Shown: one piece after another, positions 4,808 through 17,594 of the stretch
Layout: each line of letters opens with the position of its first letter
Position numbering within the stretch: position 1 is the first letter of the stretch
DNA from: a virus
IMG/VR virus record: IMGVR_UViG_3300044546_001398
Coordinates: 1-41,624 of that record
Reading direction: 5' to 3' (one strand)
DNA length: 41,624 nt
Translations under genes and position numbers: made by a program
The notes under the pieces: generated by a model
Told to the model about the DNA's origin: nothing
The model's input: only the letters and a program-made list of their open reading frames with translations
Database searches by the model: none

Positions 4808-5279
4808 CTTCCAATCAGCCGATCGCTTAACCACTAGTTTCACCGTCTAAAAGCTCCAATGGATTTTATGAATATTCACTTCCAATCAGCCGATCGCTTA
4901 ACCAGAAGCTTCACCTCAATGATTGGCAATGGCTCTATGATGCTTTCTGCCTTCCAATCAGCCGATCGCTTAACCAGAAGCTTCACCTAATTCTCTCAAT
5001 AGTATATTGTCGATGTCGGTCTCTTCCAATCAGCCGATCGCTTAACCAGAAGCTTCACCTGCTATTCACATCAGGGATCGGGATACCATCAAACTTCCAA
5101 TCAGCCGATCGCTTAACCAGAAGCTTCACCTTGGACTAATGCCTCTCTCTCTGACTCTGATATCCCTTCCAATCAGCCGATCGCTTAACCAGAAGCTTCA
5201 CCCACTGGTTAGCCATTTAAAAAGCTTTGCGGGCGCTTTGCGCTTCCAATCAGCCGATCGCTTAACCAGAAGCTTCACC
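4808..5279 (-). CRISPR. CRISPR array, 7 repeats of 37 bp, 6 spacers
   Basis: Seven 37-bp repeats start at 4808, 4879, 4951, 5023, 5094, 5166 and 5243. Plus-strand form begins CTTCCAATCAGCC, carries a HIP1-like GATCGC core and ends AGAAGCTTCACC. Repeats 2-7 are identical. The copy at 4808 has three changes near its plus-strand 3' end, marking it as the old (trailer) end. Spacers are 34, 35, 35, 34, 35 and 40 bp and share no sequence with each other. Read on the minus strand, each repeat ends GATTGGAAG, similar to the ATTGAAAC/G ends common in CRISPR repeats. That orientation matches the degenerate trailer and the adjacent nuclease gene. The leader-proximal repeat overlaps the nuclease stop codon. 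No cas1/cas2 nearby. Confidence 0.95.
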
Positions 5280-6938
5280 AGACAGATCCCAAAAACCAAG
5301 CTGAGCGCCAATATTAGGATCGATTTGCGCGGATCGCTTACGAGATTGCAATTTAGAGTTGGCTTTAGATAGTGATTTTAAATCTTGCCATAGCTCAAAG
5401 TCTTGTGGTGATTGGTTTTCAGGGTTTGCGCGAGTGGTTAGACTATTTACAGCCCCGCTTTCGCGGTTGATTGCGGTAGATGTTTCTCCTACCGATCCTT
5501 TCTTACTCTTGCGAGTCTTACTCGGTTGGCGCTTCTTCCCATGCGTTGCATGATCCACGCCCTTAAATTCCCCCGATGAAGCGGGGTATGGTTTCAAAAC
5601 CAAGCCTTTAAAAGCAACATTACGGATAACGGTTGAGGCGTTGCTATCTGCGTTGTCACCATGACCACAATTCAAGCATTTAAAAACAGCTTGAGATGGT
5701 CGAAACTCTTCGGAATAGTAGCCACACTGAGAGCAACCTTGAGAAGTGTGCGGTGCGGGTACTTTCACAAATATTCTTTCTGATGCTTTAGATTTAGTCT
5801 CTAGCATCGTTTTTGTTTTGCCGATCGCCACATCAAGAAGCGCTTTATTTAAGCCAGCTTTTGCAGCCGCGCCATTAGGTAGAAACGCGCCATTTTCACC
5901 AGCTTTCGCCTTTGGTGCGCGTACCATATTTTTAACCTTGGTATCCTCAATGGCAATGCTTTGATATTCACTCACATACTTGGATGTGAGCTTATGAATA
6001 AAGCGATCGCGTTGCCTAGCGATTTTAAGATGCACTTTAGCTAGTTTAGAGCGTTTAGCTTTTAGACGGTTAGAGCCATCTTTTGAGCGTGAGATAGAGC
6101 GCTGAATACGAGCTAATTTCTTAGCTTGCAATTTGGCATAGCGTTTTGATTTATGCAATCTTCCATCACTATCAGCAATAGGAGCGACTACACCAAAATC
6201 TAAGCCTACTTCTTGCTTTTTTGCTGGTTTAACGGGCTTTACGTCTACCGTGCTAGTGAATTGCACATAATAGCCGTCAGCCTTTTTGACGATGCGTACA
6301 ATTGTATGATTACCAGCATAGCGACGGTAGAATCCCTTGCATTTGATTGACCCTAGCTTTGGATAGTCAATTAATGCATTGTCATTACCCAAGGGCGAAA
6401 TATTAACGTATATCCGACCATTGCCGTTAGAAAAGCTTTCTAATTTATCAGCTTTCTTTTTGTAACGTGGTCTGCCTTTTTTCCCCTTGCGGTACTGAGT
6501 CCATGCATCAATTAGGTTATCCACAACAGATCGCCGTGATTCGCTATCGATAGGGTGCAAAAAATCAGGACATCGCATATTAGCGATAAAGCGATAATTT
6601 TTAACGTGCTTAAATGGCTCTTCAATATCCCGATGTTTGCGGATGTCGCATTTATCAGGATAGTAAGCACAGCAAAGCCCGTATTGATTATCAGGATTTA
6701 CATACTCAATCCCGTCGATTTTGCATGATTTTCGCCATTGCCATACTTCAGGACTATACTCTGCCCATTCTTGTTTTGCCCTCCAATAACGTTGCTGATC
6801 TTCCTCAAGCAGACTTAAACCAACATTCCATACCCATTTAAGTTGAGTAAGCCACATATCAATTTGTGCGCTTTGCTCAATCGTGGGAGACAACTTAAAT
6901 TCAGCTATCTTTTTAGTAGTGGCTTCATTGCTAGTCAT
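5262..6938 (-). CDS. TnpB/Cas12-like RuvC nuclease fused to a CRISPR array
   Basis: 558 residues. N-terminal ~230 residues are the TnpB/OrfB helical and beta region (LKWVWNVGLSLL near 33, YRKGKKGRPRYKKK near 149). The split RuvC is complete: Asp247 in GLDFG, Glu331 in IAIEDTKV, Asp431 in NADSNAS, so cleavage is expected. A zinc ribbon sits between motifs II and III (Cys402, 405, 421, 424). After motif III there is a ~115-residue basic tail ending SGEASG, whose last codons and TAA stop lie in the first CRISPR repeat. TnpB usually has about 350-450 residues, so the protein is long for TnpB and in the range of small type V (V-U/Cas12f-like) effectors. No TnpA, Tn7 genes or adaptation genes. Divergent XRE regulator upstream suggests repression. 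Plain IS605-family TnpB remains the alternative. Confidence 0.85.
   Translation of the reverse strand: MTSNEATTKKIAEFKLSPTIEQSAQIDMWLTQLKWVWNVGLSLLEEDQQRYWRAKQEWAEYSPEVWQWRKSCKIDGIEYVNPDNQYGLCCAYYPDKCDIRKHRDIEEPFKHVKNYRFIANMRCPDFLHPIDSESRRSVVDNLIDAWTQYRKGKKGRPRYKKKADKLESFSNGNGRIYVNISPLGNDNALIDYPKLGSIKCKGFYRRYAGNHTIVRIVKKADGYYVQFTSTVDVKPVKPAKKQEVGLDFGVVAPIADSDGRLHKSKRYAKLQAKKLARIQRSISRSKDGSNRLKAKRSKLAKVHLKIARQRDRFIHKLTSKYVSEYQSIAIEDTKVKNMVRAPKAKAGENGAFLPNGAAAKAGLNKALLDVAIGKTKTMLETKSKASERIFVKVPAPHTSQGCSQCGYYSEEFRPSQAVFKCLNCGHGDNADSNASTVIRNVAFKGLVLKPYPASSGEFKGVDHATHGKKRQPSKTRKSKKGSVGETSTAINRESGAVNSLTTRANPENQSPQDFELWQDLKSLSKANSKLQSRKRSAQIDPNIGAQLGFWDLSGEASG
5455..5586 (-). ncRNA. Candidate structured guide scaffold overlapping the nuclease 3' coding end
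   Basis: Read on the minus strand, four hairpins follow one another: CCCCG/CGGGG (5571-5586), ACTC-GCAA-GAGT (5505-5516), CGGTAG/CTACCG (5474-5494) and CCGC-GAAA-GCGG (5455-5466). Two are capped by GNRA tetraloops. They lie in the low-complexity C-terminal tail of the nuclease gene, upstream of and in the same direction as the first repeat. TnpB omegaRNAs are known to overlap the 3' end of tnpB and to be followed directly by the guide. By analogy this may be an omegaRNA- or tracr-like scaffold. Boundaries are guesses. Confidence 0.5.
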
Positions 6939-7241: not shown

Positions 7242-10200
7242 CTACATACTCAGCGCCGCCGATCGTGCCATCTCTCTCTGTATCTGTAAAGCGATCTCTG
7301 TAGCATTACCACTGCCAGTGGTTACATTTACGTTATAGGTTTTATTGCCGCCCGAATTATTAAGCACGTTCTTGGTTTGGTTTGCTGGTAGCACGTTAGA
7401 GCCTCTAGGCAATGTCACCAGCTCAGCACCTTTTTCCCCAACCAATGCCGCACCCCCGACAAAGTTTGTAACGCCACGCGCAAACTTAGGTAAAGTGCTA
7501 GCTCCTAACGCCGCCCTATTTACTTCATCCTGATTATTTAGAGCTTTAGCATCTCCTTTAGGACTAGTGCCAATACCAGCTACAGCCCCAAACTTAGAAT
7601 CACCTTTAGCTAACGTGAGAGCGCTGATAATTTGCTGTGCAGACTTACCAAGGATTTGTTGAATCTCTATGGCAGATGCTTTATCTAAGGCTCTCTGAGA
7701 TTCCTTAAATGCTCTCTCACGTTCAATTTTCTGATCCTCAAAGGCGCGATCAAGTGCTAGTTCTTTCTCTTTTTGAGCGAGCTTAATCGTCTCTAACTCA
7801 GCATCAGCAGCTTTCTTAGCTGCTAAGTCCTCGTTAGTTTGCTGAAGTTTTAAAGCCCTCTCATCGGCTGCTTGTTGTGTTTTCAGCGCTGCAAGTTCGC
7901 CACGCTCAAAGGCTAATTTACTCGCTTGTAATTCAGCTTCGATCTTTTGCTTTTCAGGTTTGAGAACAGTGTTTTCAAAGTTAAGCTTGGCAGTGTTTTG
8001 CTCAGCATCAAAGGCAAGCTTAGCAGCATTTTGTTCAGCTTCAAAAACTTTGTCACTAGCTTGTTTTTCTTCAGTGCGCTTTGCAACTTCAGCCTTATCA
8101 ATTTCAGCTTGCTTAGCTTTGTTCGCTTTATCAAGTTCAGCAATAGCAAACTCTACTTTTTTCTGTTCCTCACCGTTGGCAATCGCAGATATTTGGGCGA
8201 TTTGCTTAGCCTTAGCTACTAATTGTTCTTGGGATTCAGTACCACCAGCTACGCCTTGAGTAGCAGCTTGTGCTCTAATGCGTTCTTCTTCTTCGATTTG
8301 CGCCGCAATCTTGGCGCGATCTTCTGGTTTAGCAGTGGCGATCGCACCCTCATTACTGATTAGCTGCTTAGCACCTGATAGAGCCTCACTTGCTTGTTTG
8401 TCACGTTGAGCGCGTTGCGCTGCAAATGCCTCATCGTCCTTACGTTGTTTCTCTGCTCTCTGTTCTTTAAGCGCGTTTTGCTTATCGTCAAATGCCTGTT
8501 TGAGTGCGTTGAGTTTCTCCTCATTCGCCCGCTTCTTAGCATCAAGAGCATCTTCAAGTTGTAGCTTTTTGGCGTTCTGAGTATCATCAAATGCCCTTTG
8601 CTTGTCTTGTAGAGCTAGGGTTTGCTTTTCCTTCAGCGCTTCAGTTTCTAGCGCTTGTCTGCGATCTAGCTCACCTTTTGCGAGTGCGTTTTTCTCTTCG
8701 ATAGCCTTGATAGCATCAGCATTTTCGCGATCGCGCTTGGTTTTGCCATCGTCAAAGGAGCGCTTGATTGATTTTTCTGCGTCTTGGTTTTGGTTTTCTC
8801 GTAGCTGTTTAGCTCTATCCCTTTCAGCATCAGATACAGCCTTAACCGCTTCCTCTTCCTTTTTGAGTACAGCAATTTTTTGATCCGATTGGGCGATCAA
8901 TGTTTTCCGAGAATCAATCTCTAATTTGTTAGCAGCTTGGTCTACTCCTTTCTGCTTACCGATAGCCTCTAGATCGGATACTTCTTGCTTTAATCGTTCG
9001 CTGGTAGCAGCTAGTTGTTTTTGGTATTCCTTGTTTTCTTTAATTGACAACTGAGTTGCGCGACGTTCAAAGTCAATGCCAGTGCCATATTTACCGATAA
9101 GATTGACGGCTGGCTGAAAACCAGAGCTAAGTGTTGTAATCGCGTTACTATAAGCGATCGCAGTCTTTTGCGCCTCTAATTGTTGTTGAGTAATAAAGCC
9201 AAATTGCGAACCAAATTTAGAAGCCCCTGACTCAGCACCGATTAAAGCATTGCTTAAATTGGTGATTGCAAGCGCCGCCCCTTGTATTGGATTCTCTACC
9301 TTATCAAATCCACCTGCTAGCTTATCGGTAAACGATTGTGAAGTAGCAGTCGCTTGTTTTAATTTCGCATCTACAGCCGTACTTTTGTTTAGAATTTTGT
9401 CGAATGCATCCTCAGCTTTATTGCTGTTAATTTCGCCAAATAAGTTAGCTGTATTTCGGACAGATTCAAAGGCTAAATAGACAACCCCTAAAGTTGCCAC
9501 TAATGGAGCCATAGCCACAACTATAGACGCAATAGCTTTAACAGCAACCACAGCAAAAGTACCAGCCAGAATCGTGCCTTTAGCTAACAATGCTCCAACA
9601 GATACCAAAGCGCCTGTCACTGTGGTAGTAGCTGTAGTTGCGAACGTCACAAACCCAGCCGCCGCCGCTTTGGTTGCTACTCCTAAGCCTACAAACGATG
9701 TGGCGGTTACGGTGTTAGCAGTGGCTAGCCCTGTAGTCGCCACGGTAGAAGCCGCCGCCTGAATGCCAAATAATTTTAGTCCACCAATAAAAGCAGGGGC
9801 AGCCGCGCCGATCGCAGTGAGAGCCGCGCCCAATGTGGCGACACCTCCAACTAATCCAATAACGCCGCCTATAACTGTTTGCAATGGTGCGGGTAATTGG
9901 TTGAATACGTCAACAGCCGCGCCTACAGCCGCTACTAATGGCGCAAAAGCTACCTGTGCGCCGCGCCCTAAATTGACTAAAGCTTCATTGATTTTGTTGA
10001 TTGCTGCTGTAATTTGACCTTCAGCAGATTTAGCGACAATATCAAAGCCTTGCTGTGCTTTTCCTGATGCATTGCCAACAGCTACTAGATTTGCATTAAA
10101 GTTCTTAAGGTCGTCGTTAAGTAAAGGGACAACAGCAGTTAAACCATCAATATCTGTAAAGATTTTAGATAGCTGACTACTGGTGTTTAAGCCAGCCGCT

Positions 10201-12158
10201 TTTAATCGATTGAGTACACCTGTTAATCCTTCAGTTTTAAGCGTTGTAGCAGCGTTAGTGATCCCAATAGCCTCCAACACTTTTTGTGCGGATTGCGTGG
10301 GCTTGACCAAGTTGACAATCGCCTGTCTAATACCACTAACCGCAGTCTCGGTTTTAACGCCTTTAATCGTAACGCTTGCTATGGCAGCGTTTAACTCGTT
10401 TAGTGTTACGCCCGCACTTGCAGCAATTGGCGCAACTTTACCAAGCTGACCAGCAAATAGCCCGATCGTTGTTTTACCTTTATCCTGCACAACTGCTAAT
10501 TGGTCTACCACATTAGCAGCATCGCTAGCAGCTAAACCATAGGCATTCAAAATTGAGGTAGTTGCATCAGCTACCGTAGCTGTGTCAGTAAAACCAGCTT
10601 TAGCACCTAATACCGATACTCTGGCAATCTCTGATGCATCAGCAGCATTAATAAATCCACTAGATAGAATTTCATATTGTGCTGTTAATATTTCGGTGCT
10701 GGTTACTTGATTGTTTAAATCCTTTGATAGCTTGATAGCTGTATTAGCAAAAGCGTTGGATTGAGTAGATAATGTCGCTACTTTAGTTTTGGCAGTATCA
10801 AAGCCTAAAAATGCCTGATTCGCAGCGCTAGAAACTTGGTTAAAAGTAGTTCCAATCCGTTCTAATGTCTGTGATGTATTTTGTAGTTGCTCAGCTAAAT
10901 CTCGCGCTTTCTCAGTAGTAGCGCCAATGAACTGATTAAAAGTTACAGGACTCGCATCGTCAAATCCTTTCTTGATTTTGTCAAGATTGAGTTTATTAAT
11001 TTCACTCGCTAGAGCTTTAGCGTTAGCAATATCCGCAGGGTTGAAAATCTTTGCGTCAATCGCGGCAATTTGCTGCTTATATCTAAGTGTTTCTTGTGCA
11101 ATTCGGGCGGATTCTTTGTCAGCGCCATCAGATACTCGTACAGTGCTAGCAGCTTTTTGTTTTTCTAGTTGAGCAATTACTGCATCAGAATTGCTTTTTG
11201 ATTGTGGTTTTGTTGATGATTTTTCAGCGTCAGAGATCGCTTTAGCTGCTCTTGCTGACTCTGTTCTTGCTAGCGCTTCTGACTCTTTTCTTTGCCTATC
11301 TAATCTTGCTTTTTCTGCTATTTCCAGTTTAGTAGCAGATGCAATTTTAGCAGCTTCAATCTTGGCATTAGAAGCTAATTCCGCCGCTTCTAATTTTGCG
11401 ATTGCCGCACTGTCAGCAGCCGTTATTTTGGCAGTTGTGGCAAGTTTAGCAGCTTCGATTTTACTTTCATTACTTAGTTCCGCAGTACGCAATTTAACAG
11501 CATTAGAGTCTTTATTTGCAGCTAATTTTGCATCGCTAGCAATCTTTATTGATTCAATCTTAGTAACTGCTGCCACTTCATTAGCGATCGCTTTTGCTGA
11601 CAAATTTAATCGCAATGCTTCAATCTTGGCATTGGAAGCTATTTGAGCCGCTTCTAGCTTTGCAATTGTTGAGGCTTCTACAGCACTAACCTTAGTGGCA
11701 GATGCAATCCTAGCGGCTTCTAATTTGGCGATCGTTGATATTTCTGCATTACTGATTTTTGTAGCAGATGCTATTCTCGCAGCTTCTAATCTAGATTGCG
11801 CTGCTATTTCAGCGTTAACGACTTTGGTAGCATTGCCATCTTTAGCAGCTAAAACTTTAGCGTTAGCTGCTATTTGAGCCGACTCTAATTTAGCGATCGC
11901 GCCAACTTCTAACGCTGAGACTTTTGAAGCTCCTGTTAATCTAGCTGCGTCAACTTTAGCTTGTGACGCAATTTGAGCAGCTTCTACTCTTGCGACGGAT
12001 GCAATCTGAGTTTTTTCAATGCCAGTAAATTTACTTAAATCGATATTAAGTGCAGGTAATTTGATATTGCCGATCGCAGATTGCAGTAATTTGATGTCAC
12101 CGATCGCCTTGTCGATGCCATCAAAACTAACTCTAATTGCATAATTCTCATCAGCCAT
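7242..12158 (-). CDS. Tail tape measure protein
   Basis: About 1638 residues from ATG 12158 (MADENYAIRVSF); a GTG nine bases earlier is the alternative. Residues about 45-330 are a long Ala/Lys/Ser repeat region with units such as AKLEAARIASATK, predicted continuous coiled coil. Then a TP901-type tape measure domain (about 440-650: TSTEILTAQYEILSSG, TTSILNAYGLAASDAANVVD), a hydrophobic Ala/Gly/Val segment (about 740-900), a highly charged coiled coil (about 1130-1520) and a C-terminal LVGEKGAELVTLPRGSNVLP motif usual near tape measure ends. It sets siphovirus tail length; at roughly 0.15 nm per residue this predicts a tail near 240 nm. It follows the G/T chaperone genes directly. Confidence 0.92.
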   Translation of the reverse strand: MADENYAIRVSFDGIDKAIGDIKLLQSAIGNIKLPALNIDLSKFTGIEKTQIASVARVEAAQIASQAKVDAARLTGASKVSALEVGAIAKLESAQIAANAKVLAAKDGNATKVVNAEIAAQSRLEAARIASATKISNAEISTIAKLEAARIASATKVSAVEASTIAKLEAAQIASNAKIEALRLNLSAKAIANEVAAVTKIESIKIASDAKLAANKDSNAVKLRTAELSNESKIEAAKLATTAKITAADSAAIAKLEAAELASNAKIEAAKIASATKLEIAEKARLDRQRKESEALARTESARAAKAISDAEKSSTKPQSKSNSDAVIAQLEKQKAASTVRVSDGADKESARIAQETLRYKQQIAAIDAKIFNPADIANAKALASEINKLNLDKIKKGFDDASPVTFNQFIGATTEKARDLAEQLQNTSQTLERIGTTFNQVSSAANQAFLGFDTAKTKVATLSTQSNAFANTAIKLSKDLNNQVTSTEILTAQYEILSSGFINAADASEIARVSVLGAKAGFTDTATVADATTSILNAYGLAASDAANVVDQLAVVQDKGKTTIGLFAGQLGKVAPIAASAGVTLNELNAAIASVTIKGVKTETAVSGIRQAIVNLVKPTQSAQKVLEAIGITNAATTLKTEGLTGVLNRLKAAGLNTSSQLSKIFTDIDGLTAVVPLLNDDLKNFNANLVAVGNASGKAQQGFDIVAKSAEGQITAAINKINEALVNLGRGAQVAFAPLVAAVGAAVDVFNQLPAPLQTVIGGVIGLVGGVATLGAALTAIGAAAPAFIGGLKLFGIQAAASTVATTGLATANTVTATSFVGLGVATKAAAAGFVTFATTATTTVTGALVSVGALLAKGTILAGTFAVVAVKAIASIVVAMAPLVATLGVVYLAFESVRNTANLFGEINSNKAEDAFDKILNKSTAVDAKLKQATATSQSFTDKLAGGFDKVENPIQGAALAITNLSNALIGAESGASKFGSQFGFITQQQLEAQKTAIAYSNAITTLSSGFQPAVNLIGKYGTGIDFERRATQLSIKENKEYQKQLAATSERLKQEVSDLEAIGKQKGVDQAANKLEIDSRKTLIAQSDQKIAVLKKEEEAVKAVSDAERDRAKQLRENQNQDAEKSIKRSFDDGKTKRDRENADAIKAIEEKNALAKGELDRRQALETEALKEKQTLALQDKQRAFDDTQNAKKLQLEDALDAKKRANEEKLNALKQAFDDKQNALKEQRAEKQRKDDEAFAAQRAQRDKQASEALSGAKQLISNEGAIATAKPEDRAKIAAQIEEEERIRAQAATQGVAGGTESQEQLVAKAKQIAQISAIANGEEQKKVEFAIAELDKANKAKQAEIDKAEVAKRTEEKQASDKVFEAEQNAAKLAFDAEQNTAKLNFENTVLKPEKQKIEAELQASKLAFERGELAALKTQQAADERALKLQQTNEDLAAKKAADAELETIKLAQKEKELALDRAFEDQKIERERAFKESQRALDKASAIEIQQILGKSAQQIISALTLAKGDSKFGAVAGIGTSPKGDAKALNNQDEVNRAALGASTLPKFARGVTNFVGGAALVGEKGAELVTLPRGSNVLPANQTKNVLNNSGGNKTYNVNVTTGSGNATEIALQIQREMARSAALSM

Positions 12159-12159
12159 A

Positions 12160-12908
12160 TCAATCACCCGCTAATAATTCAATCGTCTCGTAATCGCAAA
12201 TTTCAACTACCCAATTCGGTATTTTGCCTTCCTTAAATAGCTTCGCAAATTTCTTAGCAAACCTAACGCTCATCTGCTTTTTGGCTTGCATTCTCCGCAA
12301 TGCCTGCAATGATGGTGTCAAAGATCGGAAAGCTTTCTCACGGTCTTTAAAATCACCAGTAGCCAACGTATTTCGCGCCGCAATAACCTCTAGCTCAGCC
12401 GATCGCTGTAACTCTTGCTCATTGATATAAGCAAGATGCGATCTGATTACGCTTATTCGTTGCTGTCCAAATCCATCTCTGAATTTTGGAGCAAAGCAAC
12501 TTGATGTGAGTTTGAGGTAGATTTGATTCCACTCTTCTTCGATGTCTTTAACGGTACGGTTGGATCGTCTTCCTTTCCCTCCGTCACTGGTTCATCGAGT
12601 TCATAGCTTTCTGTAATGCCCTCACGTTCTGAGACAAAAGTTAACCATAGCGCCTCGATCAAAGGCATTGATTTTTTGAGTTGCGCTGTAATTTCTTCAC
12701 GGCTTACAGATAATCGCACTGATAACCATGCAGATACCTGAACGATTTTCCATTCAGTATTGGCACTGGTTGAGCTAAGGTCGGTAGCGATCGCCTTATC
12801 GACTGCGATCGTTTCATTAACAGTTAGTTCCCCTAGCAATGGGATTTCAACACCAAAAACGGTTTTAGATTTAAAGGTAGGCTTTTGCTCAATCTCAAAA
12901 ATTAGCAT
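12160..12908 (-). CDS. Tail assembly chaperone GT fusion made by -1 frameshift
   Basis: A second frame, open and coding-like but without a start codon of its own, overlaps the end of the G-like gene and runs to TGA at 12160. A slippery heptamer G GGA AAG lies at 12579-12573 in the G frame (codons 111-112), the same heptamer used by phage lambda G/T. A -1 slip there joins 112 G residues to 137 T residues (GRRSNRTVKDIEEEWNQIY, later SHLAYINEQELQRSAELEV), a 249-residue product. Lambda-type GT fusions bind tape measure and tail tube protein during tail assembly, and this one ends two bases before the tape measure start. Confidence 0.8.
12453..12908 (-). CDS. Tail assembly chaperone, G-like short product
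   Basis: 151 residues from ATG 12908. Beta-rich N-terminal half (KTVFGVEIPLLGELTVNET) and helical middle (ALWLTFVSERE), then an acidic, disordered tail (DEPVTEGKEDDP) holding the frameshift site. Size and place between tail tube and tape measure match gpG-type chaperones. Termination at 12453 gives this product; slippage at 12579-12573 gives the longer GT form. Confidence 0.75.
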   Translation of the reverse strand: MLIFEIEQKPTFKSKTVFGVEIPLLGELTVNETIAVDKAIATDLSSTSANTEWKIVQVSAWLSVRLSVSREEITAQLKKSMPLIEALWLTFVSEREGITESYELDEPVTEGKEDDPTVPLKTSKKSGIKSTSNSHQVALLQNSEMDLDSNE

Positions 12909-14826: not shown

Positions 14827-14852
14827 GTGGCTATTACAAAAAAGTAGGCAAA

Positions 14853-15140
14853 TTATACAACTAATATCGAGTTTTGATTTACCATGCAGTATCCTTGCTG
14901 TCCACTGGCAAGCCCTAAAGGAGTCATTAGCGATCGTAGAAAATTACGGGTATGCTGCTTAGATTTAGAGCCTGTAACTTGCATCACCTCTGAGGCTGTA
15001 TGCCATTTACCATCTTTGAGTAATTTGTAAATAGCGAGTACATGACGCTCACCACTTGTTAGCGATCGCCTTGGGGCTTTGTAGCCATTAGAAGTAAACT
15101 CAGCGCCAAAGCGAGTGTAATGTTCGTATTGATTTAGCAT
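14853..15140 (-). CDS. Winged-helix-like hypothetical protein
   Basis: 95 residues. The segment SLTSGERHVLAIYKLLKDGK then WHTASEVMQVTG and NFLRSLMTPLGL reads as a winged helix (helix, turn, recognition helix). Last gene of the minus-strand operon, overlapping its upstream neighbour by seven bases. A DNA-binding role is plausible but unproven. Confidence 0.5.
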   Translation of the reverse strand: MLNQYEHYTRFGAEFTSNGYKAPRRSLTSGERHVLAIYKLLKDGKWHTASEVMQVTGSKSKQHTRNFLRSLMTPLGLASGQQGYCMVNQNSILVV

Positions 15141-15451
15141 TTAATTAAATCGCCATCAAAATGACGCGCTTGATACCTTGAAAAACAACCTTCAATTCGA
15201 TCTAAATCATCATATTTTAAAATCCATGCAAGGAAAGCTTCAAAAGACATTTCTTTTTCAATAATGTGGCAAGAGATAGATTTTAAAAAATGCTCACAAT
15301 CTTGGTAAGTTGGCTCAAGATCTTTTTCCTGTGCAAAATCCATAGCGGATTGAATTTCTGACTCAGTAAAATCTACGGCTTTTACACCTTCATTAAAACG
15401 CCCGTTAAAATTTGCAACCCATTTCATAACTTTCTTTTCGGTAGCGCTCAT
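15134..15451 (-). CDS. Hypothetical protein
   Basis: 105 residues, mixed helix, acidic (FTESEIQSAMDFAQEKDLEP), with Cys and His scattered rather than paired. Coupled to the next gene by a seven-base overlap. A 17-base palindrome (AATCCC-TATTA-GGGATT, 15480-15496) lies just upstream of its start and may be an operator or RNA hairpin. Family not recognised. Confidence 0.55.
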   Translation of the reverse strand: MSATEKKVMKWVANFNGRFNEGVKAVDFTESEIQSAMDFAQEKDLEPTYQDCEHFLKSISCHIIEKEMSFEAFLAWILKYDDLDRIEGCFSRYQARHFDGDLIKC

Positions 15452-15509
15452 CTCGCAAGAGCTTGATAAATTTAGCGAGAATCCCTATTAGGGATTAATT
15501 GAGATTAGA

Positions 15510-15812
15510 TTAATACAAATCTGTGCCAAACCAAGTATCCAAAGCAATCTTTGCTTCGTCAATCTTTTTAGCTTTTTTGGGGGATTCAAGATCTTTGAAC
15601 TGACGAGCAAAACCGCAAGCGGCTTTTTTCATTTCGCTGGTCGAAAAATACTTACCAGCGCAAATCCACATATCTGCTGAGTTAGAAATTTTTTTAATCG
15701 CTTCAAGCACGGCGGGTAAGGTTTCGCGCTTGATTTGAAACTGCGATTGAAAAGTAAAGCAGATTTCGTTTTTTAGCGCGGTTCTTGGGTTGATTGCTGT
15801 TGCGGTAGTCAT
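15510..15812 (-). CDS. Hypothetical protein with its own promoter
   Basis: 100 residues starting MTTATAINPRTALKNEICF. Preceded by GAGGAC and by a promoter module (15841-15895) that is duplicated at 30233-30286, including spacing to the start and the first codons ATGACTACCGC. C-terminal half is Lys-rich (KKAACGFARQFKDL, PKKAKKIDEAK). Family not recognised. Confidence 0.6.
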   Translation of the reverse strand: MTTATAINPRTALKNEICFTFQSQFQIKRETLPAVLEAIKKISNSADMWICAGKYFSTSEMKKAACGFARQFKDLESPKKAKKIDEAKIALDTWFGTDLY

Positions 15813-15839: not shown

Positions 15840-16298
15840 CTAATATAACAGGCTAGTACTATACTGCCTAGTACTTTGTAATATTTCTTTACAATTTAAG
15901 TGTATAGACTGCATTTCACGGTTGTATTTAGGCAATTTATAGGCTTTAAAATGCCCTTCACTACCACTAAACTTGCCACGTTTCCCTTTTAAATCAAGGT
16001 GTAATTCTTGCTTATCCCAGCGCTTTACATATTGCGAAATTTGCTGATGATTTTCAATGTAATGAGGAGAGCTTACCGCCCAATACCATTCACCATTTAG
16101 CATCTTTCGGGCGATCGGCATCTCACCAAAGATCAAGGGTAAATTCTTTTCAGCGTCAGCCGCCGTTGGGTTAGGCGTGATTAACCCTAATCGATCTAGC
16201 AACTGATACTCAATCAGAGCATCAAAGCTAGGCGACCAATCATCATAGGCAACAAGCGGCGTTGCCATGTGTGCAATTATTTGGAGATTGGTTAGCAT
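15840..16298 (-). CDS. Csf3/Cas5-like RAMP protein, apparently truncated
   Basis: 152 residues. Layout resembles type IV Csf3 (Cas5-like): early IIAHMATPLVAYDD and SFDALIEYQLL strands (about 7-33), EWYWAVSSPHYI (about 70-81), then KGKRGKFSGSEGHFKAYKLP (about 104-123). Csf3 proteins are normally longer and end in a Gly-rich IGKKRxxGxG segment; here the frame leaves the family-like sequence near residue 134, where the promoter module begins, and ends at TAA 15840. I recognise this by pattern only. It overlaps the T5orf172 gene by seven bases. Alternatively it is an unrelated phage protein with a similar fold. Confidence 0.45.
   Translation of the reverse strand: MLTNLQIIAHMATPLVAYDDWSPSFDALIEYQLLDRLGLITPNPTAADAEKNLPLIFGEMPIARKMLNGEWYWAVSSPHYIENHQQISQYVKRWDKQELHLDLKGKRGKFSGSEGHFKAYKLPKYNREMQSIHLNCKEILQSTRQYSTSLLY
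15841..15895 (-). promoter_or_regulatory. Promoter module, copy A
   Basis: Minus strand: ATTGTAAAGAAATATTACAA, then an inverted GTACTAG/TAGTAC element, then TATATT (-10). The module is 83 bases from its first base to the ATG at 15812. The copy at 30233 has exactly the same 83-base distance. It lies wholly inside the 3' end of the upstream Csf3-like gene. Confidence 0.6.
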
Positions 16299-17122
16299 GG
16301 TGTTAATACATCCCAGTTAAAAGCGTCTTCATTGCCGTATTCTTCTTGTTCTTCTTGCTGATGCAGTTGATATATTCGCACCCGTTTTTTATTGATGGTT
16401 TTTTGCTTAGATGTTCTAGCTAAGCCAAGCCATGTCAGCATGGCTCCAATGTATGAAGTTAAGTTTGACTCATACCCACAGGTTAAATGAATACCAAGCT
16501 CTGTCAATTCGCCGCCTTTTCGCAAATCTTTGAGTTTCTGAGCAAAAGTGATCACTTCGGGCGTGCCATTAATAGCGCCATTCTCTTCAACAATGTGCCA
16601 TGTGTTGCCAGATAAAACAAAGTCTAGGAACTCATGCAATCCAATTTGCTCTAATGCCTTTTTATTTGCATTCTCTTTGGTAGCATTCAAAAAGTTTTTC
16701 TGATTTTCGTTTTGAGCATCTTTCATTAATTCATCTAAATACTCCAGATGTTTTTGAAAAGACCAAGAACTATTGTAAGTACACCAGCTACTTACGCTAA
16801 ATTGATTGTCACACCATTTGGATATATATCTTTTTACGTCATGCTCTAACGTAAAAATTTCCCTTCCTTTTGATTGAACCCGAAAAGAAGTTAAAAGGTT
16901 GTGAATCAATTTTTCTGCTTTGCGATCACAGTAAACAAACCCTATCAATTCAGGTTTAGCAACCCATCTTGAACACTCTTCAAACCTCTTCTCAAAATTA
17001 GCAAAATTTGAAGCGCTGCCAATTTTCACAAGCCATTCATCTACTTTAATAAAATAAACAATGTTGCTAAAACTGTCACCAATCAAATTTTCGATTTGAT
17101 ACGCTAAGCCAATATTATCCAT
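16292..17122 (-). CDS. T5orf172 / GIY-YIG-superfamily protein
   Basis: 276 residues. Residues about 18-105 fit the T5orf172 (MUG113-like) domain: NIVYFIKVDEWLVKIG, then FEKRFEE, AEKLIHNLLTSFR and GREIFTLEHDVKRYI. This fold is related to GIY-YIG nucleases, but whether it cuts DNA here is unclear. The C-terminal part (about 130-276) is helical, with a possible winged-helix segment ending in a basic stretch (KQKTINKKRVRIYQL). It sits between the two Csf-like genes and overlaps both starts and stops by seven or eight bases. Confidence 0.65.
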   Translation of the reverse strand: MDNIGLAYQIENLIGDSFSNIVYFIKVDEWLVKIGSASNFANFEKRFEECSRWVAKPELIGFVYCDRKAEKLIHNLLTSFRVQSKGREIFTLEHDVKRYISKWCDNQFSVSSWCTYNSSWSFQKHLEYLDELMKDAQNENQKNFLNATKENANKKALEQIGLHEFLDFVLSGNTWHIVEENGAINGTPEVITFAQKLKDLRKGGELTELGIHLTCGYESNLTSYIGAMLTWLGLARTSKQKTINKKRVRIYQLHQQEEQEEYGNEDAFNWDVLTPC

Positions 17123-17594
17123 TTAGCAAACTCCTAATATCGCTCTTAGAATCCGCGAGAAAGCCTTTGTAATCTTCAAGATATTGCTTATATCTTGCAT
17201 GAGATTCAGAGGCGCGATCGCTTAACTTTTGAGCGTGTGGAGTAATCTGCATAAACTCACCGCGATCGCCGTCCGCAGTCTCAAACCAGAATTGCATAGA
17301 GCATAGTCCGCACCCTGTCCCAGATTGACCGCCTAGGTATGGCGATTCAGCAAACTTGAGTAAAGCATCAGCAATAAATCCTTCTTCGATTCTGGTTACG
17401 TTTGCGCTCCAATAGGAATACAAAGTTGCGCCTGTTTGAAGTAGCCAGTTACCCATGATCATCTGTTGGCTTTGAAGGAGTAAGCGCAATGCGCTCGTAT
17501 TGATTTGAGTACATATTTCGATGTAGCGGAGGGAGTAAGAGCCGCGATGGGCATCGAAAAAGCCGATGAGTTTGGCTCGTTCAATTTCTTGCAT
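17115..17594 (-). CDS. Csf2/Cas7-like RAMP fragment candidate
   Basis: 159 residues. A strand-helix-loop pattern LLQTGATLYSYWSANVT, then IADALLKFAESPYLGGQSGT and GCG (Gly88 to Gly96) resembles the C-terminal half of type IV Csf2/Cas7 proteins, where a helix (AL-x-FA-x-P) precedes a Gly-rich LGG-loop. Full Csf2 is roughly twice this length, so an N-terminal half is missing or the protein is a minimal version. A helical Lys/Glu tail follows. Neighbour of the Csf3-like gene, with the T5orf172 gene between. No type IV array, Csf1 or DinG is seen. The call is a hypothesis. Confidence 0.4.
   Translation of the reverse strand: MQEIERAKLIGFFDAHRGSYSLRYIEICTQINTSALRLLLQSQQMIMGNWLLQTGATLYSYWSANVTRIEEGFIADALLKFAESPYLGGQSGTGCGLCSMQFWFETADGDRGEFMQITPHAQKLSDRASESHARYKQYLEDYKGFLADSKSDIRSLLNG

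Follow-up and report, generated by a model that had tools for sequence, protein, structure and literature searches.

Type IV-B CRISPR systems have been described as lacking both an array and Cas6, and their function is unknown (PMC8175902, PMC7937560, PMC11656645). In the solved complex from Mycobacterium, Csf2 and Cas11 form a filament on heterogeneous RNA (PMC7937560). That the role of these systems is unsettled is partly due to the lack of an array and of a crRNA-processing enzyme. Type IV-B is already known from viruses, i.e. the archaeal ‘Fuxiviridae’, which encode Csf1, Csf2, Csf3, Cas11 and CysH (PMC10848311), and type IV systems are known from prophages (PMC11656645). Cyanophages are known to carry a V-U2 system with an array, as in Aphanizomenon phage CL131 (PMC6293099). 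In the open-access literature, we found no account of type IV-B in cyanophages, nor of Cas6 being among its regular components. Here, we analysed a stretch of viral DNA of 41,624 nucleotides, an IMG/VR virus record (the window), together with related phage contigs. The intact operons of these relatives are a new cyanophage clade within the already known virus-borne type IV-B systems, and the window is a broken member of this clade. We suggest that its locus is, in all likelihood, what is left of a type IV-B CRISPR operon carried by a phage and wrecked recently.

The window contains 51 copies of GCGATCGC, while 0.6 are expected. This sequence is the HIP1 octamer, a cyanobacterial signature, pointing to a cyanobacterium as the probable host of the phage. 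The locus is a run of overlapping genes on the minus strand, read from 17594 to 15840, in which a fusion ORF is followed by a T5orf172 gene and a truncated csf3 (Table 1). The first-pass annotation had seen here a possible remnant or minimal type IV module, and the motifs and coordinates that it quoted all agree letter for letter with the minus strand, i.e. LGGQSGTGCG in the 159-aa ORF (17115-17594) and SFDALIEYQLL, EWYWAVSSPHYI and EGHFKAYKLP in the 152-aa ORF (15840-16298). The T5orf172 gene is also where it had been placed, between the two ORFs (16292-17122; Pfam PF10544, 28.4 bits with a cut-off of 20). Moreover, both proteins are indeed shorter than usual, with 119 of 392 Csf2 residues and ~135 of 228 Csf3 residues left.

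Table 1. Features of the broken type IV-B locus and its surroundings in the window.
Feature	Position	Strand	Remarks
Fusion ORF, 159 aa	17115..17594	-	Residues 1-40 from upstream phage gene; residues 41-159 are the C-terminal 119 of Csf2 (Cas7)
csf2 (cas7) 3' fragment	17118..17474	-	Protein 97% identical to residues 274-392 of the intact L007 Csf2
Upstream gene, first 40 codons (donor of fusion start)	17475..17594	-	Intact 113-aa copy in L012, 8265-8606
T5orf172-domain (GIY-YIG-type nuclease) gene, 276 aa	16292..17122	-	Pfam PF10544; DNA junctions
Truncated csf3 (cas5), 152 aa	15840..16298	-	~135 native residues; tail from intergenic DNA
Deletion joint 1	17474..17475		1,617 bp of L012 missing; DNA alignment
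Deletion joint 2	15899..15900		894 bp of L007 missing; DNA alignment
Three small downstream genes	14840..15812	-	15510-15812, 15134-15451, 14853-15140; in L007 between methyltransferase-like gene and csf1

The proposed Csf2- and Csf3-like identity of the two ORFs is supported by profiles, by full-length orthologues in the same order in related phages and, less strongly, by fold. The 159-aa ORF matches the PADLOC Csf2 profile at positions 211-319 of 329 (8.5e-11) and the 152-aa ORF the PADLOC Csf3 profile at positions 4-130 of 222 (1.1e-10). Because these matches are partial, each ORF represents part of a gene, i.e. the 3' end of csf2 or the 5' end of csf3. Using family profiles built from the relatives alone, with the window left out, the Csf2 fragment scored 158.0 bits and the Csf3 fragment 158.1 bits, the best shuffled copies scored 8.7 and 7.3 bits, respectively, and neither fragment matched the profile of the other. 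The glycines of LGG..G.G are invariant in Csf2 of the phages, of a Gloeobacter plasmid and of a Rhodovastum plasmid. It could be argued that both ORFs are non-Cas proteins with a chance likeness, as Pfam and PHROGs searches of both gave weak and unrelated matches only. However, scores of 158 bits versus at most 9 in shuffled copies and the synteny with full-length genes in the relatives leave this explanation with a negligible probability, and on these sequence comparisons we regard it as already refuted. A protein search with Csf2 gave no match in an annotated phage collection. The structural check suggested in the first-pass annotation was made with AlphaFold models of moderate confidence (pLDDT about 70), and the top PDB matches of the two predicted structures are type IV-A Csf3 (7xg1_B, 3.3e-4) and Csf2 (8s36_L, 9.9e-3). 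For the Csf2 fragment, Foldseek returned nothing under 0.001, yet the top three matches are all type IV-A complexes. The model-based matches to type IV-A complexes are thus support for, and not proof of, the Csf identity.

When viral contigs were scanned with the csf2 fragment, the csf3 fragment and a Csf2 profile, 23, 20 and 71 loci were obtained, respectively. In ~38 related phage contigs, the operon is largely whole, with the order Cas11-Csf2-Csf3-CysH, usually with Csf1 and often with Cas6, and the Gloeobacter plasmid carries the same gene set. Within the 38 loci of this cyanophage-type clade, Csf2 (378-426 aa) and Csf3 (225-242 aa) are full length unless cut by a contig end, CysH is present in 32 and Cas6 in 21 (for instance in L012; PF09559, 7.4e-33). 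Csf1 lies within the fetched locus in 21 of the 38, and in G006 and G008 csf1 is elsewhere on the contig. Csf1, Csf2, Csf3, Cas11 and CysH are all present in, e.g., L003, L011, L023, L094 and L096. The first-pass annotation had proposed to look for Csf1, Cas6 or DinG in relatives; as to DinG, neither the window nor the contigs of eight relatives matched its profiles (TIGR03117, PF13307). In L007, the gene order is Cas11 (173 aa), Csf2 (392 aa), Csf3 (228 aa), a methyltransferase-like gene, three small genes and Csf1, the last assigned to its family through a homologue in L040. In most other relatives, Csf3 is followed by CysH and then often by a cupin gene and Cas6. The L007 gene directly after csf3, where the others have CysH, is DNA-methyltransferase-like (11027-11641). 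In the virus contig L102 (3387-8665), csf3, cysH and csf1 occur in more than one tandem copy beside a single csf2.

As judged from gene content, the presence of CysH and Cas11 marks the relatives’ operons as type IV-B (PMC8175902), i.e. as putative type IV-B or a Cas6-bearing variant of type IV-B. They have the five-gene set and no array, as expected for this subtype, and they have Cas6, which is not expected. As in the system on the plasmid of Mycobacterium sp. JS623 (PMC7937560, PMC8175902), Cas11, Csf2, Csf3, CysH and usually Csf1 are present, while an array beside the operon and DinG are absent. By contrast, Cas6, which type IV-B is said to lack, is present in 21 of the 38 clade loci, L007 has a methyltransferase-like gene instead of CysH, and the window retains only parts of csf2 and csf3. 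The ‘Fuxiviridae’ (PMC10848311) virus has Bathyarchaeia as host and possesses a mini-array, whereas the hosts here are probably cyanobacteria, the operons have no adjoining array, Cas6 is common in the clade and the window copy is broken. With type IV-A, the locus shares the Csf2/Csf3 folds, the best predicted fold matches of the fragments being type IV-A subunits, but DinG (Csf4) is absent from the window and from the eight relatives’ contigs, and the relatives have Cas11 and CysH; the absence of DinG argues that these systems are not type IV-A. In type IV-C, a Cas10-like large subunit with an HD nuclease would be expected; what we found in the relatives is Csf1 and CysH. In a Csf2 tree, the clade (36 rows) stands apart from the other type IV-B loci of viruses and bacteria, and this separation has full SH-aLRT support, although this deep split is provisional given the quick method and the long branches; none of these other loci has Cas6.

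Alignment of the DNA to the relatives places two deletion joints at base level (17474/17475 and 15899/15900). At the first, the csf2 tail continues the reading frame of the upstream gene after its first 40 codons; in comparison to L012, this joint removes 1,617 bp comprising the rest of the upstream gene, all of cas11 and the first part of csf2. At the second joint, 894 bp are lost in comparison to L007, i.e. the end of csf3 and the methyltransferase-like gene, and the csf3 frame runs on through intergenic DNA. Because the DNA after this joint matches L007, the ancestor most likely had the methyltransferase-like gene of L007. Apart from one divergent stretch, the similarity to L007 extends across the three small genes; it ends at 14840 just inside csf1, which is lost from the window. 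G001, a contig of 69.6 kb from the same phage that is 99.97% identical to the window over 38,189 bp, has the same lesions. In neither the window nor G001 did we find a match for Csf1 (TIGR03114 and a clade-built profile) or, in profile searches, a significant match for Cas11 or CysH, or Cas6. A weak Cas6-like score in the window (E 0.007, ORF 8360-8590) was rejected because it lies inside the large ORF 7242-12167. As far as type IV-B membership is concerned, the window has residues 274-392 of the 392 of Csf2 and about residues 1-135 of the 228 of Csf3 instead of full-length proteins, and has lost Csf1, Cas11 and CysH. The truncations could also be misjoins in a metagenome contig: the window has not been curated, and related phages have the DNA in which the joints are located. 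However, the same joints recur in G001, which has 11 mismatches to the window in 38 kb and is 97.8% identical elsewhere. Although the two contigs may not be fully independent of each other, the shared lesions make an assembly error highly improbable.

Of the two alternatives in the first-pass annotation, a remnant fits these data, as both genes are truncated at mappable deletion joints. In the wreck that we propose, the ancestral operon would have encoded Cas11, Cas7 (Csf2), Cas5 (Csf3), a CysH-like enzyme or, as in the arrangement closest to that of the window, a DNA-methyltransferase-like protein and, further on, Csf1. Two deletions took cas11, the first ~70% of csf2, and the end of csf3 together with the next gene, and csf1 has been lost as well. 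Because Csf2 lacks its N-terminal two thirds and the Cas11 partner is missing, the stumps would not be able to do the ancestral job. In support of a wreck, the only short forms of Csf2 or Csf3 in the 38 clade loci are those cut by contig ends. Against it, the reading frames of the two stumps are still open, and that of csf2 is fused in frame to a start. Also, dN/dS between fragment and intact genes is 0.03-0.055 for csf2 (median among intact genes 0.031) and 0.05-0.16 for csf3 (median 0.093). Relaxed selection in the fragments is thus not visible from dN/dS, which is no higher than among intact genes, and the values would fit a recent break as well as stumps that are still constrained. As the nearest intact genes differ by ~10% in DNA, the low dN/dS is mostly due to selection that acted earlier than the break.

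Phage proteins that resemble Cas subunits can function as anti-CRISPRs. The fragments might, therefore, be kept as functional, dominant-negative mimics that jam the CRISPR system of the host or the type IV-B complex of another phage, in line with the open frames, the in-frame fusion with a start codon, the dN/dS values and a solo full-length Csf3 (g60) in the cultured phage Cr-LKS4. However, the substitutions behind the low dN/dS are mostly older than the break, csf3 past residue ~135 comes from intergenic DNA, a fusion is in frame by chance in one of three cases, and this form is seen in one phage species only. Hence, we consider such a function unlikely. With 273 of the 392 Csf2 residues and Cas11 missing, and a csf3 tail of intergenic origin, wreckage appears to be the better explanation.

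The first-pass annotation had also linked the type IV genes to the array at 4808. This array (4808-5279) has seven 37-nt repeats with spacers of 34-40 nt and is abutted by a 558-aa ORF (5262-6938, minus strand) that is Cas12u2/V-U2-like (6.7e-107) and in which RuvC-type D, E and D residues are readable. The spacers of G001 are the same as those of the window, and G008 has a related array with different spacers. Because the window spacers have no match among the available loci outside of the same array, no target can be named. The arrangement at 4808-6938, an array beside a TnpB-like V-U2 effector, is that of phage CL131 (PMC6293099) and is a system apart from the type IV finding. The link to the type IV genes is not supported, as the array has its own V-U2-like gene, the relatives’ operons are array-less and the window kept the array; the 4808 array belongs to a separate V-U2/Cas12-like system. 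Alongside the relatives’ operons, no array of at least three repeats was found, and the arrays in the window and G001, G008, G014 and L124 are all near TnpB/Cas12-like genes. G002 and G006 have a type IV-B operon but neither a V-U2 gene nor an array of at least three repeats, and G008 combines the two systems, its type IV-B operon being intact and its V-U2-like gene accompanied by an array. The array in the window outlives the loss of type IV-B, and in G002 and G006 type IV-B occurs with no such array. The two systems are thus separable, and we rejected the idea that type IV-B depends on the V-U2 array, as each occurs without the other.

These observations also bear on the second alternative, a minimal working module in which the short Csf2 and Csf3 bind crRNA from the 4808 array. 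It could appeal to the presence of an array in the same phage and to the combination of both systems in G008. Yet, the array abuts its own Cas12u2/V-U2-like gene, G002 and G006 are array-less, Csf2 is without 273 of its 392 residues, both genes are truncated, and Cas11, Csf1, CysH and Cas6 are all absent from the window and G001, making a working module very improbable. A 2-repeat ‘array’ in L118 was dropped as simple-repeat DNA. In two type IV-B phages, a short array lies at or near a TnpB/Cas12-like gene (L124, 15535-15746 and 15798-17120; L059, 17193-17496).

The T5orf172 gene fits precisely between the stop of csf2 and the start of csf3, with overlapping stop and start kept on both sides, and breaks the reading frame of neither fragment. 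The csf2/csf3 boundary appears as a repeated landing site in the relatives, often with the overlapping start/stop kept. The same site is occupied by a different T5orf172 gene in L004 (10175-10735), a GIY-YIG gene in L010 (10353-10730), unrelated ORFs in L003 (10360-11437) and L023 (10354-10917), and cas6 in L040 and L091 (1155-1763).

By analogy with the Mycobacterium type IV-B complex, Cas7 and Cas11 of the ancestor may have built a filament on RNA, joined by Cas5 and Csf1. Such a complex could serve the phage via small RNAs, either by capturing crRNAs of the host or by guiding the silencing of elements of the host or of rivals, and CysH or the methyltransferase could be an accessory effector. 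The Cas6 genes in the clade point to processing of crRNA-like RNA, at least in this branch, and, because no array is found beside the operons, the processed RNA is perhaps that of the host. We speculate that this array-less, Cas6-bearing branch is a distinct one that captures and trims host crRNAs for counter-defence and that the stumps in the window are dominant-negative against this system or its host counterpart, a combination that we regard as quite unlikely. Cas6 beside Cas11, Cas7, Cas5 and CysH makes crRNA capture directly testable, and the methyltransferase-like gene that replaces CysH in L007 is a hint that nucleic acid may be modified in the CysH step. The window, for its part, is a natural knock-out, in which the same phage lineage is without type IV-B while the V-U2 system is still there. 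More generally, dozens of phages with intact, array-less type IV-B operons, often with Cas6, go against the textbook definition.

A single type IV subunit occurs in the cultured Cylindrospermopsis phage Cr-LKS4 (OQ625504.1; L140, L141), in which g60 (50611-51324), annotated as hypothetical, encodes the full-length Csf3-like protein. This phage also carries a Cas12u2-like gene annotated as a transposase (g64, 54613-56619) and two CRISPR arrays (87526-88160 and 88835-89093), and a profile search did not find csf2, cas11, csf1, cysH or cas6. The solo Csf3 indicates that single type IV subunits can persist in cyanophages.
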